A stretch of 64,000 nucleotides of DNA from Halobacteriovorax marinus. Its GTDB lineage: Bacteria > Bdellovibrionota > Bacteriovoracia > Bacteriovoracales > Bacteriovoracaceae. The stretch lies in the NCBI GenBank assembly GCA_002163155.1, contig MAAO01000002.1, positions 434,001 through 498,000 of the forward strand, in the 5' to 3' direction. This document shows, one piece after another, positions 7,591-51,490 of this stretch (position 1 is the stretch's first letter; every line of letters begins with the position of its first letter). The notes under the pieces are model-generated. The model ran no database searches and was not told the origin of the DNA. It worked only from the letters and a program-made list of their open reading frames with translations. The position numbers were made by a program, and so were the translations under genes.

Positions 7591-8025
7591 TTATTTTCTT
7601 GAAGAAAGCTCAGACATTGTTTTACCAAGTGACTTAGATTTTCTCTGAATGAAATTATTCTTCTCAGAGAATTCTGCTTCTTCCTTACAACCAATGCAAA
7701 GTTCCGCTGTCATTCTTGCCATTAGTCTTTCAAAATTAATTTCATCATCACAATCCTGACAAAGGCCATAAGTCCCTTCTTCAATTTTCATGAGTGCTTT
7801 ATTAATTTTCTTTAGATAAAAGATATCACGGTTTCTGAATCTGATCTCTTGAGATGTCTGAACGTTAACTGAGGCTTCGTCTACGGGGTCACTAAGTTCA
7901 TTCTTATCAAGGCAATAACTTTCATTAGTTTGTGCCTTGTTGAAAATTCTTTCCTTTTCTGCAAGAAGCGTATCTTTAAGTTGGGTAATTTGCTTGTTGC
8001 TGAGGTACTTGTTTTCACGTTTCAT
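7591..8025 (-). CDS. DksA/TraR-family RNA polymerase-binding zinc-finger protein
   Basis: 144 residues. A helical hairpin (about 10-80) carries DPVDEAS at the tip, equivalent to the DxxDxA tip that enters the RNA polymerase secondary channel. The zinc finger has Cys 89, 92, 110 and 113 (CxxC-x17-CxxC). Such proteins modulate transcription, often together with ppGpp. The start has GAGAGAGGAA upstream. It may be the only gene on its transcript, since 205 bases separate it from the preceding minus-strand gene and it ends at the bidirectional hairpin. Whether it is DksA proper or a DksA-like paralogue cannot be decided here. Its leader contains a CA-repeat tract (8053-8062 on the plus strand as GT). 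Confidence 0.88.
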   Translation of the reverse strand: MKRENKYLSNKQITQLKDTLLAEKERIFNKAQTNESYCLDKNELSDPVDEASVNVQTSQEIRFRNRDIFYLKKINKALMKIEEGTYGLCQDCDDEINFERLMARMTAELCIGCKEEAEFSEKNNFIQRKSKSLGKTMSELSSRK

Positions 8026-8230
8026 GAGTTTCCTCTCTCGTTTAAAATATGTAGTGTGTGTGTTTTGTAGAACAGTTGTAACTCAATGAATACACGAATT
8101 AAAGAATTCTAGTATTGCAATTTCTTACATCTGCTTAATCTACTTTATTTAGATGTTAATGTACTTGTGACCCAGAGCACTCGTAAAACCTATTAATCTT
8201 ACAATTGTTGACATGTTTACTTGGTTTTAG

Positions 8231-16668: not shown

Positions 16669-19600
16669 ATGAAGAACGTAACTAAACTTATTGTCGTATT
16701 ACTTTTTATGAACTCAGCAACTCTTGCTCTTTTTGAGGATACAAGAGGTAGCAAAAATTCTAAACGTGCTCAGCTGAATAAGTATCGAATCGATAGTAAA
16801 ACCTATTCAGAAGATGAAGTTAAGAAGAATGCGGAAATCAACTTTCAACTTGCCCAAGCCGTGTGCCAAGGTAAGAGGGATCCTGTTGTTAGTAATACTC
16901 TCAATGAGCTAATGGAAGTAGGGCTTTATAATTATTGTGACCAATATGAAGATCAAGAAAAGTTTTGTTCTTGCGTTTCTGAAGTCACTTATGAGCAAAA
17001 AGTTTCGGATGTAGAAATAAAAGAATTTGAAAAGAATCTTATCAAAGAAAGTAGGAAAAATATAATGCTTGAAAGTGTTCAGGCACTAGCTCTTTATAAG
17101 TATGAAACTCTTCATGCTGGTTTATCAAATGCTAACAAAGGGAAGAAGGATTATCCCAATAGTGCTCCAAGCTGTAAGCACAATGATGAATTCATGAATT
17201 CAATTAAATCTGATTGTTCTGAAGAAGATCTTGAAGAAATGAGTGACATTTTAAGCGACTATACAGCTTCCTGTAAGGATTGTTCTAAAGAATTTTCTTT
17301 AGATGTTGTGACCAATGATATTGGTCGTGGAATGAATAAGAGCAAGAGATTTCTGTCATTCGCAGGTCAAATTATGGCCAACAGAGTAAGTGACTTACAT
17401 GATAGTCTTGATTTTTTTAAAAGTAAGGAACTTTTGAAAATAAAGGGTAAGAAAGATTCCTATTCTTACAATACGACTAATGAACTATACGAGAGAGAGT
17501 TAAAGGAGAGAATTGCAGAGAAAATTTTTGCAAAGTGGCAAGGTCACTTAGAACCAACATATCGTTATTTTAATGGTGATGTAGAGAAGAGAAAAGATGT
17601 AGCTTTCATCGATATTATAGAAAATTCGAAAATTTTTAAAGGAGTTAAGGATGGACCAAAGTCAAAAATGGTTTTATCTGAGCTTTCTTTGAGCAGTGCT
17701 GTAAGAGAGCAAGTGGACTTCTTTGAAGGGAAGTTAGAGATAAGTAAAGTTTTTGTTAAAAAGAAAATTTCTAAAGCACAAATTCTTAAATCTTTGGACA
17801 AGGTTTTTAATGATTATACAAACGAAAAGTTAAGTACTACATGTGAAAATGCCATAAAGGTTTTTAAGAAATCTTGCCGAGAAATGAAAGACAATTCTAA
17901 AATTAGTTTTGATTTTAATGATAATGCTGCAAAGTTCAGAGATAAGTTTTATTCTAAGAAAGACAAGTTTAAATTTGATCAATTATATTGTGTAGCCAAT
18001 GACTTGGGAACACAGAAAATGGCAAAGACATCGAGAAGAAAAAAATCAAAATCAATGGCAAGAGCAAGAAATCACTTTAGACCTCGAATGAATATTGATA
18101 TTGCAGGAACTGGAAACATTTATCACGGTGACAGTTTAAGTTATACCTTAACAAAAGCAGACTTTAGTACGGGTAATACGAACTTAATGCATGCTTCTTT
18201 AGCGAATGGGGAAAATAATTTTGAAATTAAGCCATTAATGGAGCTTGCAACTTCTTCTTTGAGTCTAAAGCATTCCGATACTGAAAATACTGATGATAAC
18301 AATGAGACTGACACTAATTATAACTCTTACTTTAAAGCCGGTGGTAACGGTTACGAAGGTACTGATTATGGAATAAATGCTGATTACACTACAAGTTTTA
18401 CAGCAGACTGGTCAAAATTATCTCTTGGAGGATATCCTTCATCGAGTTTTCCAAAAACAGAAAGTTATTCTTGGGAGAGTTCAAAAATAAAAATGAACCC
18501 CGACTCAAATGTCGTCGATAGATTTAAAAATGATCTTGCTAATAACCCATCTGAATTTGAAGGGACTCTAGTTAATAACGAAGAATTGAATGAAAACTTA
18601 AATAAAAGTGTAAAAGCTGATATTCAAAATTCGACAGCTGAGGCGATGAAAAATATAGAAGTCGATCTTAATAACTCTCTAAATGAAGGGAATATAGCAG
18701 AATCTGCAAATCTTGATTCTGAAGCTACTGATTCAGTAGCAAGCTCCTCAGCAGAAAATACTTCAGCAAATAATGAGCTCTTAAATTCGGATAAAGAATT
18801 CAAGCAAAATGATTCAGCTCAACTTAATCAGCAGGACTTTATGGCCGATGGAATGAATTCTCAGTCAAACTATGCTGGTAATTCCAACTTTAATTCTAAT
18901 TCTAATTCCCAAAATTCCAGATTTAAAGCTCAGGGTGACTTTAAAAATAAAGCTACTGATCAATACGCTAATGACTCACAAGTTGATGGGAAATCTAATT
19001 CAAACTCAGCAAGTAACTTTAGAAGTCTTTCAAGTGTTGACACTGATTCTAATACTACTACCAGTAAACTGGAAACTTCTAGGTCTGCCCTTGAAGTTGA
19101 AAAACTAAAACTAGAATTAGAGAAAATGAAACTAGATCTTGCTAAGTCACAATCTGAACTTAAAAAAGTTTCCATTGAGAGTGAAGAAGAAGTTCCTGTT
19201 GAAGTAGTTAAAGCAAAGGCACCTATAAAGAGGACTCCAATTGCTAGCGCTAGAAAGAGTTCATCTAAAGGATTCTCAAGTAAAAGTCAAAATGATTCAC
19301 CAAGAAAGAGTGGGACATCAGTATCTAGAGGTTCATCAAGCTCAGCACCTTCAACGGTTTCGTCAACATCTAATAACTCATCATTCTCTAATCCTACGAG
19401 TTCATCTTCTGCATCTTCCTCATCATCGAGAAGAAGTAAAGACTCGCAAGCACAGTCCTCTTCTGCTAGTTCAGCTGGAGGTTCTTCCGCATTACTAACA
19501 GCGACAAAGGCCGGAGACGCTCAAATATTTTCAAGTGCCTCAAGACTTGAGGGGAATTCATTCAATTCCTATGCTGAATTACAAAGTGCTGACCAAGATC

Positions 19601-19824
19601 ATTTAGAGAAAATGTATGAAAAGTTTGGTTCAGAAGTTGTTGTTGCGGACAATGAAGGTCAAAAGTTATTTGAACTAGAGAAAGACTCAGATACAGGTGA
19701 AATTAAAATCATTAAGAAAATTGCTAAAAGAGCACCGGCGGCCTTAGAGAAACCCCTCGAAGCGCAAAAATCTAGAAAGAGATTTACTTTAGAAGAGTTT
19801 AATCAAATTTTAGATGCTCAGTAA
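16669..19824 (+). CDS. Large exported Ser/Asn-rich protein, unknown function
   Basis: 1051 residues with a signal peptide ending near residue 21 (LAL/FE). Residues 50-180 are helical and Cys-rich (about ten Cys, including a CSC and a CKDC). Residues 180-470 are Lys-rich helices. From about 480 to 950 the protein is low-complexity Asn/Ser/Asp/Thr, with a coiled-coil (EVEKLKLELEKMKLDLAKSQ near 805-825) and a Ser-run segment (about 865-940). The C-terminus is again ordered and charged. The make-up resembles a surface or periplasmic spacer protein. AGGA lies 5 bases before the ATG. Codon use matches the neighbours. No family recognised. Confidence 0.65.
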   Translation: MKNVTKLIVVLLFMNSATLALFEDTRGSKNSKRAQLNKYRIDSKTYSEDEVKKNAEINFQLAQAVCQGKRDPVVSNTLNELMEVGLYNYCDQYEDQEKFCSCVSEVTYEQKVSDVEIKEFEKNLIKESRKNIMLESVQALALYKYETLHAGLSNANKGKKDYPNSAPSCKHNDEFMNSIKSDCSEEDLEEMSDILSDYTASCKDCSKEFSLDVVTNDIGRGMNKSKRFLSFAGQIMANRVSDLHDSLDFFKSKELLKIKGKKDSYSYNTTNELYERELKERIAEKIFAKWQGHLEPTYRYFNGDVEKRKDVAFIDIIENSKIFKGVKDGPKSKMVLSELSLSSAVREQVDFFEGKLEISKVFVKKKISKAQILKSLDKVFNDYTNEKLSTTCENAIKVFKKSCREMKDNSKISFDFNDNAAKFRDKFYSKKDKFKFDQLYCVANDLGTQKMAKTSRRKKSKSMARARNHFRPRMNIDIAGTGNIYHGDSLSYTLTKADFSTGNTNLMHASLANGENNFEIKPLMELATSSLSLKHSDTENTDDNNETDTNYNSYFKAGGNGYEGTDYGINADYTTSFTADWSKLSLGGYPSSSFPKTESYSWESSKIKMNPDSNVVDRFKNDLANNPSEFEGTLVNNEELNENLNKSVKADIQNSTAEAMKNIEVDLNNSLNEGNIAESANLDSEATDSVASSSAENTSANNELLNSDKEFKQNDSAQLNQQDFMADGMNSQSNYAGNSNFNSNSNSQNSRFKAQGDFKNKATDQYANDSQVDGKSNSNSASNFRSLSSVDTDSNTTTSKLETSRSALEVEKLKLELEKMKLDLAKSQSELKKVSIESEEEVPVEVVKAKAPIKRTPIASARKSSSKGFSSKSQNDSPRKSGTSVSRGSSSSAPSTVSSTSNNSSFSNPTSSSSASSSSSRRSKDSQAQSSSASSAGGSSALLTATKAGDAQIFSSASRLEGNSFNSYAELQSADQDHLEKMYEKFGSEVVVADNEGQKLFELEKDSDTGEIKIIKKIAKRAPAALEKPLEAQKSRKRFTLEEFNQILDAQ

Positions 19825-19908
19825 GCAGCTCAATAATTCTATTCAATTGATCTCCTGACGTGGTAGCTATGAGTGAGTATATGACTTGTAACGCATCTGG
19901 AGATGTTC

Positions 19909-20151
19909 ATGAAGGAAGAATTTCCCAAAGATTACTTCATCACTATTGAAGGTGATTCTTTCCGTGAAGGCAGAATTAGCGTCAATAAATTAAATCAAGA
20001 ATATGTCGCTGAAATTGATATCGTACAAATTGAATCTCGAAAAATTTGGCAACACGTCAAAACAATCTATGGCCGCTCCACTGCCCGCGACGCTTTGGAA
20101 GATGGGTCGTACACTCTAGGTAAATATCTAAGGGGAGAGTCAGTGATTTGA
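19909..20151 (+). CDS. Small hypothetical protein
   Basis: 80 residues, acidic N-terminus, looks like a small beta-alpha fold; no Cys, signal or membrane span. Start chosen at 19909 because GGAG (19899-19902) is 6 bases upstream; the ATG at 19903 touches that site. No family recognised. It lies 84 bases after the large exported gene without a clear terminator between. Confidence 0.5.
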   Translation: MKEEFPKDYFITIEGDSFREGRISVNKLNQEYVAEIDIVQIESRKIWQHVKTIYGRSTARDALEDGSYTLGKYLRGESVI

Positions 20152-20165
20152 CTCTCAAATCAAGG

Positions 20166-20183
20166 ACTTGTCAAAAACTTGTC
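20166..20183 (+). repeat. Direct repeat ACTTGTC x2 upstream of the sigma-54 promoter
   Basis: Two copies of ACTTGTC (20166-20172, 20177-20183), 11 bases apart, i.e. one helical turn, about 65 bases upstream of the sigma-54 promoter. The position suits an activator site but this is inference. Confidence 0.35.
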
Positions 20184-20247
20184 TGGCTTTCTGCGTAAAG
20201 ATATATGTTATTTCAGTTAGTTATAGCGTGTACCCAGAAAGTGAAAG

Positions 20248-20264
20248 TTGGCACGGCACTTGCT
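20248..20264 (+). promoter_or_regulatory. Sigma-54 promoter
   Basis: TTGGCAC, five bases, TTGCT gives a perfect match to the -24/-12 consensus TGGCAC-N5-TTGC(A/T); the invariant GG (20250-20251) and GC (20262-20263) are separated by 10 bases as required. Predicted start near 20275. Nothing downstream but a short non-coding stretch and a terminator. Confidence 0.75.
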
Positions 20265-20274
20265 ATATAGTATG

Positions 20275-20369
20275 TGTGTGTGTGTAGGAGCTACGAAGAA
20301 AGGATTTTTTCATAACTCCACAAAATGTCTCTCAAAAAAAAGCTCATGGATCTCTCCATGGGCTTTTTT
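20275..20369 (+). ncRNA. Candidate sigma-54-dependent small RNA, about 95 nt
   Basis: Bounded by the sigma-54 promoter start and the strong terminator at 20341-20369. It begins with a GU run, then contains GGAG and CTCC segments that can pair around a small GAAA/TTTC hairpin, a single-stranded A-rich stretch and the terminator stem. No convincing coding frame: the only ATG frame runs straight into the terminator. No Rfam family recognised. This is inference from promoter plus terminator. Confidence 0.5.
20341..20369. terminator. Bidirectional terminator
   Basis: Ten-bp stem (arms 20341-20350 and 20355-20364, one G-T pair) with TCTC loop, T run on the plus strand and eight T on the minus strand. 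It ends the candidate small RNA and the arginase-fold gene. Confidence 0.93.
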
Positions 20370-20379
20370 CTTTTTAACC

Positions 20380-21309
20380 CTAAAGAAAAGCTTCAATCAA
20401 AGATGCAATTGACCTTGCTCCCTTACATGACAGAGAATCAAAAATAGGATTATATTCATATATCCCTACAACTTTCTTATTTTGAGATAGTGAGTAATAC
20501 CATGAGAAAATGGCCTTTACTGACTTTAAGCTTAGTCCATCGTGATTAACTGCACTCACAGCTTCCATTGTCATTGAGTCTATGGCGTCACAGTCTAGAC
20601 TGAGTACAATGAGCTCATCTTTGCTCTCAAATAGTTCTTTATCCAAGAACGAGGGAATACTTGTGAAGTTTGCTGTCTCTTTTTCCAGTTGAGCATTAGT
20701 GTAAATTTTCATTTCACCTTTGGCGAGGGCGTCATAAGTTGAGGTCGAATTGGCAAATTTATGAATTCCCAATTGTAGAAGTTTGAATTCACCCTTGCAT
20801 TCGTTAGCAAATTGTCTGAAAGGTGTACCTGAATGAAAATGACTATCTTGTCTTGTGTCGAGATGTGCGTCGATATTAATGACGGTTATATTCTTATGCT
20901 CTTTGTTAAGTGCGCTTAGGAGAGGGTAGATATGATCATGGCCACCACCTATGTGCCATAAGTTAGCATTAGGCGAATTTTCTATAAGTTTCCCTATAGA
21001 GTTTGTGTCACAGATTTGTTGCTCATTGAAAGATTCATCACTGAGTTTCCCCCTGATGCTCTCCTCTGCAAGTTTGTGTTCTTTATGGGCCGCCATTTTC
21101 TTAAGAGTCTGCACTATGGCACGAGGGCCATAGTTGCTTCCTCTGCGTCCACCATTTCTGATGACTCCAAGATCTGACTCACTAAGTAAAAAGAGGTGCT
21201 CGATACTCTTGGCCATTTGGGAATCGAGTGTAGGTATTTTTAAACGGTCACTACTTCTCGATTTTAGTTGTTCTTCAATATTGTCATAGTCTTCTTTCAT
21301 GGGAGGCAT
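20380..21309 (-). CDS. Arginase / formiminoglutamase-family hydrolase
   Basis: About 309 residues from the ATG at 21309. Binuclear manganese ureohydrolase motifs: GGGHDHIYPLL, INIDAHLDTR (DAHxDxR) and SLDCDAID. LGVIRNGGRRGSNYGPRAI and the GTPFRQF stretch resemble formiminoglutamase (HutG) rather than arginase; the substrate is not certain. The frame stays open to 21405, but that start would abut the divergent gene's ATG and add a Leu-rich stretch unlike the family; neither start has a ribosome site. No other hut or arg genes are nearby. Confidence 0.82.
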   Translation of the reverse strand: MPPMKEDYDNIEEQLKSRSSDRLKIPTLDSQMAKSIEHLFLLSESDLGVIRNGGRRGSNYGPRAIVQTLKKMAAHKEHKLAEESIRGKLSDESFNEQQICDTNSIGKLIENSPNANLWHIGGGHDHIYPLLSALNKEHKNITVINIDAHLDTRQDSHFHSGTPFRQFANECKGEFKLLQLGIHKFANSTSTYDALAKGEMKIYTNAQLEKETANFTSIPSFLDKELFESKDELIVLSLDCDAIDSMTMEAVSAVNHDGLSLKSVKAIFSWYYSLSQNKKVVGIYEYNPIFDSLSCKGARSIASLIEAFL

Positions 21310-50122: not shown

Positions 50123-51490
50123 CTAATTGATTTCTGGAAGCTCCATCAAGAAGCCGTCTTCAACTTTTAGTGACTTGTTGATTACAATAGTAGGGTATTT
50201 CTTAATGGCCAGAGCTATGGCCTTTAGCCTCTTGTGATCACGTAGAAAGCGAATGGCAGAATAGATTCTATTTGGATAAACGATACCTGAAGATACTGAC
50301 TTGTCTTTAAGTTCAGTTCTTACTTGTACGGTATCCATAATGATTTGCTTTAGTGTCTTAGCAGTTAACCTAACACCAATTTTAGTGGCCAAGGTAAAGG
50401 CCTTTAGTGCCACATTAGTAATAAATGGAGCCGCTTGGCTTGTGCCATTGATCTTTAAATATTCTTGTTTTGGTATGGCACTTTTAATGGCCACACCAGG
50501 AGCGAATAGGTCTACTGTCTTTTTACCAAAATTAGAAAAATACGCCATCGTTTGAAAATCAAATGAAGCTCCTACAGACAATAGGTTTGGTAGTCTAATA
50601 GAACTTGGAAAGTGAAGGAATTCATCCGTATCGGACTTCTTATTTCCGGCAGAGAAAACAAAGAGCATCTTAGGATAGCGCTTAATGAGAATCGTAGACT
50701 TTTCAATGAGAGAAGTCATAAAGACTCTCGCTTGAATAACCGCTTCTTCGTCTGATAATTCCTTATCATATTGTTCTTTATAAACAGCGCTCACCATTTT
50801 CTTGGCGCCTTTAAAACTTTGTCCAAATGAGCCATTGATGACAACAGCTTTACTGGCAGCATACTCCACAGCAAGACCGAGTTTCTTCACTTGCCAAGAG
50901 ATGTACTTCTTCCAGTGAGAAGCAATATGTTTCTTCTTTTGCAGTTCTGTTCCAGATTTTAAAGGAGTAAACTCTGGTGCTTTAGCTGGACCTTCAGTGG
51001 CCTTACCTAGATAGGTAATAATAAGAGCTTTAAGGTCTCTAGAAGTTAATTCTCTAGGGAGGTCTTTAGTGCTTACAGCAATCGCGCCAACGTGAGTTCC
51101 ATGAATCCATGAAGTGAGCTCTTTTCTCTTCTTTTTAAGTTCTTTGTCTTTTTTAAGTTCTTCATAAGTCGCAAGTTCAGTATCAGTTATAGTTTCGAGA
51201 GAGAACTTGGCCTTAAGGGCGTAGTAGAGTTTGATTTCATCAGTAATTTCTATATCTCTGTGAAGATCAAAAACCTTATTAGACATATTAATGAAGTTCC
51301 ATCCTCTTATATCATCACGGTAACCATTATGATCATCGTCTCTAGAGTTTAGAACTTCTCGTTCATTGATTTTGATTTTATATTTGAGCTCTTTATGAGT
51401 GTAGTCCATTCCATTGTCTAAAATGGCGGCAACGTGAGCGAAAGAGCTTACTTGGAAAGATACAATAAGTGTGAGGATAATATTTTTCAT
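50123..51490 (-). CDS. Subtilisin-like serine protease (S8), exported
   Basis: 455 residues. Signal peptide ends about residue 18 (SSFA), and the catalytic domain starts at once: ILDNGMDYTH (Asp), WIHGTHVGAIA (His), FVFSAGN (oxyanion Asn) and NGTSQAAPF (Ser). There is no N-terminal prodomain, which most secreted subtilases need for folding. Between the Asp and His there is an unusually long Lys/Glu-rich insert (about 60 residues), and a second insert lies between His and the oxyanion Asn. No ribosome site; TATTCT ends 6 bases before the ATG. An exported protease fits a predatory or scavenging lifestyle, but the substrate is unknown. Confidence 0.88.
   Translation of the reverse strand: MKNIILTLIVSFQVSSFAHVAAILDNGMDYTHKELKYKIKINEREVLNSRDDDHNGYRDDIRGWNFINMSNKVFDLHRDIEITDEIKLYYALKAKFSLETITDTELATYEELKKDKELKKKRKELTSWIHGTHVGAIAVSTKDLPRELTSRDLKALIITYLGKATEGPAKAPEFTPLKSGTELQKKKHIASHWKKYISWQVKKLGLAVEYAASKAVVINGSFGQSFKGAKKMVSAVYKEQYDKELSDEEAVIQARVFMTSLIEKSTILIKRYPKMLFVFSAGNKKSDTDEFLHFPSSIRLPNLLSVGASFDFQTMAYFSNFGKKTVDLFAPGVAIKSAIPKQEYLKINGTSQAAPFITNVALKAFTLATKIGVRLTAKTLKQIIMDTVQVRTELKDKSVSSGIVYPNRIYSAIRFLRDHKRLKAIALAIKKYPTIVINKSLKVEDGFLMELPEIN

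Follow-up and report, generated by a model that had tools for sequence, protein, structure and literature searches.

A predicted sigma-54-dependent small RNA with a GGA-loop hairpin conserved in Bacteriovoracia

When following up a sequence-only reading of a 64,000-nucleotide stretch of the Halobacteriovorax marinus genome (contig MAAO01000002.1; hereafter the window), we found a small RNA gene with a predicted length of about 95 nt, a complete putative control region, and homologues in most genomes of the class. The earlier reading had proposed a sigma-54-controlled small RNA at this place, and comparative sequence analysis makes this almost certain: the promoter is retained in every copy with upstream DNA, the hairpin covaries, terminators are always present, and paired dyads lie upstream. 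The coordinates of the features are collected in the table.

Table. Features of the small RNA locus and of its candidate target in the window
Feature	Coordinates	Strand	Remarks
dksA-like gene, candidate target	7591-8025	-	DksA_N and zf-dskA_traR domains
CA run ACACACACAC, candidate site for the GU run	8054-8063	-	29-38 nt before the dksA-like start codon
Putative upstream activating dyad 1, GTCAGTGATTTGAC	20139-20152	+	perfect GTCA-N6-TGAC; overlaps the end of the upstream 82-aa ORF
Putative upstream activating dyad 2, GTCAAAAACTTGTC	20170-20183	+	one mismatch; 31 bp after dyad 1; overlaps the ACTTGTC repeat
IHF-like site TTTCAGTTAGTTA	20211-20223	+	37 nt before the -24 box
Sigma-54 -24/-12 promoter TTGGCACGGCACTTGCT	20248-20264	+	GG-N10-GC spacing
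Small RNA gene	20274-20369	+	predicted 5' end at about 20274; 3' end is the terminator U run
5' GU run	20274-20285	+	putative pairing region, predicted mostly single-stranded
Covarying hairpin GGAG...CUCC	20287-20319	+	apical AAGGAU, GGA at 20302-20304; CsrA-type motif
AUGUCUCUC	20325-20333	+	conserved, single-stranded
Intrinsic terminator	20336-20369	+	structure kept and sequence variable in homologues; usable also by the convergent minus-strand gene

The -24/-12 element is the perfect sigma-54 promoter that the earlier reading had described, including the spacing between its GG and GC, and it is the single exact match to TGGCAC-N5-TTGCW in the window. At least 10 of the 12 positions of the element are matched in all 70 distinct copies for which upstream DNA was available, and 45 of these are perfect. 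The GU run starts 10 to 13 nt past the GC of the promoter in the 70 copies. RpoN is present in 121 of the 129 class genomes, that of the window included.

Farther upstream, an enhancer had been suggested at an 11-bp direct repeat of ACTTGTC. Two copies of the motif are present at 20166-20183, as described, but what the homologues conserve is not a direct repeat. It is a pair of inverted dyads, GTCA-N6-TGAC, about 31 bp apart; the ACTTGTC repeat is a degenerate copy of this dyad, and the direct repeat was replaced accordingly. In the window copy, the distances from the dyad starts to the -24 box are about 109 and 78 bp; family-wide, the dyads lie most often 70 to 120 bp before the box. Of the 70 upstream regions, 48 contain at least one exact dyad (shuffle mean, 0.05) and 40 contain two dyads with no more than one mismatch (shuffle mean, 0.2); the dyad-dyad spacing is 31 to 33 bp, about three helical turns, in 35 of 43 cases. 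Alternative spacer lengths between the half-sites gave almost nothing, except for a 10-nt spacer in 9 regions. Exact IHF consensus sites were found in 14 of the 70 regions (1.5 in shuffles), and sites with one mismatch allowed in 45 (16.6 in shuffles), with position -37 recurring. Among the 129 genomes searched, 43 have an exact double dyad, almost always at the small RNA locus, and no GTCA-N6-TGAC dyads were found at the other 16 perfect sigma-54 promoters of genome G000. As the double dyad is nearly exclusive to this locus, the enhancer-binding activator may be nearly dedicated to the small RNA. The genome has 15 matches to the sigma-54 activator domain, 12 of them strong enough to be examined, and none of the 12 has a paired perfect dyad nearby; no regulator gene was recognized beside the small RNA in the copies examined.

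The RNA is built from a GU run (7 to 13 nt), a hairpin with a GGA loop, the single-stranded segment UGUCUCUC, and the terminator, in this order, and the window copy has a folding z score of -4.1. Comparison of homologues shows that the hairpin is closed by GGAG/CUCC-type pairs and holds GGA in its apical loop. Ninety-three percent of the cells in the hairpin alignment are paired and changes on both sides occur at 7 of 11 pairs, although the alignment was fitted to the covariance model, which favors the hairpin structure somewhat. None of 500 shuffles was equally good by any measure, and slid structures were worse on nearly all measures. The apical GGA is invariant, usually as AAGGA, while the stem around it covaries. 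Almost none of the 71 distinct copies of the main lineage has lost the GU run or GUCUCU. The strong bidirectional terminator noticed earlier consists of 15 pairs, and a weaker one on the opposite strand serves the convergent gene, whose end is at 20380; the stem of the former is retained while its sequence changes freely, and a terminator is present in all homologues compared.

A nucleotide search with 20150-20380 gave matches in 25 of 59 genomes, a number that includes the genome of the window itself and one short match to the promoter only; the homologues can be aligned from the -24 box as far as the terminator. Twenty-two copies served to build a covariance model, which detected the RNA in 97 of the 129 Bacteriovoracia genomes (62 of the 73 high-quality ones), nearly always as a single copy, and gave no match in 240 genomes from the rest of the phylum. 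Promoter, stem, and GU run, for which the sequence-only reading had proposed a conservation check, are kept across the homologues, with the divergent genus g32 lacking the GU run. Scanning 84,980 species for an exact pattern gave 48 stretches, titled mostly Bacteriovorax, Halobacteriovorax, or Bacteriovoracaceae and in a few cases, more broadly or after neighboring groups, Oligoflexia, Bdellovibrionales, Bdellovibrio sp., or Proteobacteria. No clearly unrelated group appears among the 48 titles, and several of the loosely titled contigs are the same contigs as in the class search. The Rfam covariance search that had likewise been suggested gave no match at the gathering level of Rfam 15, and a known Rfam family was rejected as the identity of the RNA; a permissive threshold gave weak matches, mainly to terminator hairpins. 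No published report of the RNA was found in the literature searched, whose coverage was incomplete. By these sequence comparisons it is a previously uncatalogued regulatory RNA that represents a new sRNA family.

On one flank, the RNA is usually followed by a convergent arginase-family gene and a GYF-domain gene. The opposite flank varies: it encodes an 80-aa protein that belongs to no known family, or it holds a series of divergent genes, the first of which, from a reading of its sequence, resembles a Pal-type lipoprotein. RNA and control region stay together when the neighbors change, which argues that the RNA is a gene of its own.

Two divergent forms were recovered by other means. Genus g32 was missed by the covariance model and found through the double dyad: its four genomes (L167-L170) have the dyads, the sigma-54 promoter, and an RNA without the GU run or UGUCUCUC. 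This RNA has two potential hairpins with loops of A-N-GGA, where N is G, C, or U, and they are not always the lowest-energy structure when a longer stretch is folded. A search for the promoter plus GGATTTT led to genus g54, which retains both dyads, one of them with a mismatch, together with one AAGGA hairpin and a GU run that is short; UGUCUCUC is absent. The main lineage, g32, and g54 thus all share one RNA element, the GGA hairpin.

Both CsrA and FliW are present in 119 of the 129 class genomes. The CsrA of the genome of the window has a canonical sequence, and its gene follows a flagellin-hook-like gene and immediately precedes fliW. FliW antagonizes CsrA in other bacteria, and its presence weakens the idea of the RNA as the sole CsrA antagonist; to argue for a CsrA sponge from an absence of FliW would be wrong. 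Hfq (PF17209) was found in none of the 129 Bacteriovoracia genomes, and the positive controls were detected. The small RNA carries the CsrA motif, A-N-GGA in a hairpin loop, with one clear loop in the main lineage and two in g32. Of 328 sites obtained by coimmunoprecipitation of CsrA in Campylobacter jejuni, a species with FliW, 276 had AAGGA in a hairpin loop (PMC4894983). That CsrA binds the hairpin of the small RNA has, in our view, a slightly better than even chance. The RNA might do nothing else than titrate CsrA, as a reduced analogue of RsmY/CsrB, with the GU run and UGUCUCUC acting as spacers, stability elements, or additional sites for proteins. Such a role would suit the near-universal CsrA, the persistence of the GGA loop, alone among the RNA elements, in every lineage, and the g32 form, which has duplicated the loop with a free N in A-N-GGA and lost the other two elements. 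We consider it unlikely, however, because the near-complete conservation of the GU run and GUCUCU in the 71 copies is unlike that of spacers, most of the RNAs have a single clear site, and FliW is present.

The conserved GU run would instead be a pairing segment. The best dksA-like homologue was located in 20 genomes, mostly on the same contig as the RNA and 3 to 80 kb apart from it. A CA run of at least 7 nt lies within the 70-nt dksA-like leader in 14 of the 20, at -41 to -22 in 13 of these, against a background of 5 in 793 leaders of G000 and 5 in 1,330 of other samples (0.3 to 0.8% of genes). Ranked by duplex energy with the GU run, the dksA-like leader of the window comes first, at -18.5 kcal/mol, among the 793 G000 leaders, a sample from 864 kb or about a fifth of the genome, with two other leaders close behind at -18.3 kcal/mol. 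By our own count, the CA run is found in the dksA-like leader in 8 of the 16 genera examined; it is weak or missing in the rest. The leaders of g14, g29, g23, g12, g58, and g63 lack it, and g14, g29, g23, g12, and g58 keep the GU run nonetheless; no dksA-like orthologue was found in the stretches of the g32 genomes examined. The GU and CA repeats are invariant, so compensatory change cannot prove pairing, and an enhancer role alone may explain why the CA run is retained. The earlier reading had seen this run, which exists one base away from the 8053-8062 given there, and had called its pairing with the GU run weak. Retention of the CA run in about half of the genera lends the idea support, and in this genus we regard pairing with the dksA-like mRNA as somewhat more likely than not.

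GAGAGAC, the complement to UGUCUCUC, is enriched near start codons in G000, an enrichment that was not reproduced in G001 or in other, smaller samples. The window also encodes, on the minus strand at 50123-51490, a secreted subtilase-family protease with the leader AAAGAGAGACATATTCTCTCCCTATG, which contains an exact 9-nt complement of AUGUCUCUC.

Base pairing without CsrA would make the GU run and UGUCUCUC the seeds of the RNA and leave the hairpin to protect it or to present a third seed. The conserved single-stranded seeds, the conserved CA run in dksA-like leaders, and the match of AUGUCUCUC to the subtilase leader are what one would expect of such an RNA. It offers no explanation, however, for a GGA loop kept amid a covarying stem or for the duplicated A-N-GGA hairpins of g32 that lack the seeds, and we hold it to be improbable, no less than titration alone.

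We lean slightly toward the mechanism as a whole, a sigma-54 small RNA that combines GU-CA pairing with a CsrA-binding hairpin. An enhancer-binding protein would bind the two GTCA-N6-TGAC dyads and, helped by a bend at the IHF-like site, contact RNA polymerase with sigma-54 at the -24/-12 site. Transcription would run to the intrinsic terminator and yield a trans-acting small RNA, in which the GU run and UGUCUCUC, both single-stranded, flank the hairpin with its ANGGA loop. In target mRNAs, for which the dksA-like gene is the leading candidate in this genus, the GU run would pair with CA-rich translation enhancers that precede the ribosome site, and pairing would presumably lower their translation. 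The GGA hairpin would bind CsrA, either recruiting it as a partner protein or titrating it. A tentative extension, which we doubt more than the mechanism itself, is that CsrA, with no Hfq detectable, serves as the partner of a base-pairing RNA and links sigma-54 signaling to the dksA-like and other mRNAs. If true, this would place a CsrA hairpin between two seeds, under an enhancer element that has almost no other use in the genome.

Almost all small RNAs known from predatory bacteria come from Bdellovibrio; the RNA described here is kept in most genomes of a class, has a complete predicted control region, and has partners that can be tested. In organisms with CsrA and FliW and no detectable Hfq, a GGA-loop RNA would make RNA control of CsrA outside Gammaproteobacteria testable, and likewise the question of what replaces Hfq. 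The activator may have the small RNA as its main target, and its signal would then reveal what these predators sense through the RNA.

Two other readings would deny the locus a small RNA altogether. The first is a short translated frame, either a 54-aa frame starting with TTG or one opened by ATGTCTCT, whose ATG is present in 55 of the 71 copies. None of these 55 has a Shine-Dalgarno sequence before it, the frames are 6 to 24 codons long and end at variable points, the sequence varies through the terminator stem, indels in the stem ignore codons, and the 54-aa frame has no Pfam match. A gene is thus very unlikely, and we rejected the coding reading as highly improbable, in line with the earlier claim that no credible gene lies between promoter and terminator. 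Least credible of all, to the point of being negligible, is that the promoter match upstream of the terminator arose by chance, the terminator being that of the convergent arginase-family gene, which shares it with the RNA; this reading is contradicted by the conservation in all 70 copies, by the 17 genome-wide occurrences of the perfect motif TTGGCAC-N5-TTGCW against 1 for the reversed control, which puts perfect sites far above chance and marks them as real promoters as a class, by the absence of any reversed-control match to the promoter plus GGATTTT across the genomes listed, and by promoter, RNA, and dyads staying together where neighbor genes differ. The 16 further perfect promoters in G000 (loci L128-L144) lie mostly 45 to 90 nt before genes, and a reading of the translations suggests that most of these genes encode lipoproteins, secreted proteins, and flagellar rod proteins (flgF/flgG-like).

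The RNA resembles GlmY in its control, GcvB in its pairing segment, and the Csr RNAs in its loop, and it is a member of none of these by the tests applied. GlmY, controlled by QseF/GlrR in Enterobacteria, likewise has a sigma-54 promoter, several upstream activator dyads, and IHF sites, and its half-sites TGTC...GACA are similar (PMC8745638, PMC6075780). The QseF consensus is TGTC-N10-GACA, whereas the present RNA has GTC-N8-GAC: the conserved element here is not TGTC-N10-GACA but GTCA-N6-TGAC, two bases shorter between the half-sites. GlmY also differs in adjoining its own kinase-regulator genes and in acting by sequestering RapZ, and it is found neither at the gathering level nor among the weak Rfam matches of the small RNA. 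GcvB is larger, Hfq-dependent, and not sigma-54 driven. It shares a GU-rich segment, for which the candidate partners in the present case are CA- or ACA-rich enhancers that immediately precede the Shine-Dalgarno sequence; GcvB represses translation by pairing with ACA enhancers at such sites (PMC3879156). CsrB/CsrC and RsmX/Y/Z also carry GGA in hairpin loops, of which the g32 form has two, but they have multiple GGA stem-loops and were described in Gammaproteobacteria (PMC4894983), whereas the present RNA usually has one loop, has conserved seeds, and coexists with FliW. The attack-phase sRNAs and merRNA of Bdellovibrio are small RNAs of related predators; three of the sRNAs are preceded by FliA promoters, and merRNA is a riboswitch RNA for c-di-GMP (PMC3627812). 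The present RNA, in contrast, was not found outside its class.

Two proteins encoded upstream of the locus were noted in passing. The 82-aa protein at 19903-20151 (plus strand) belongs to no family and is conserved upstream of the RNA in about 30 loci, and its last codons overlap the first activator dyad. Before it, at 16669-19824 (plus strand), the window encodes a secreted-looking protein of 1,051 aa without a Pfam match, the second half of which is rich in Ser and Asn.
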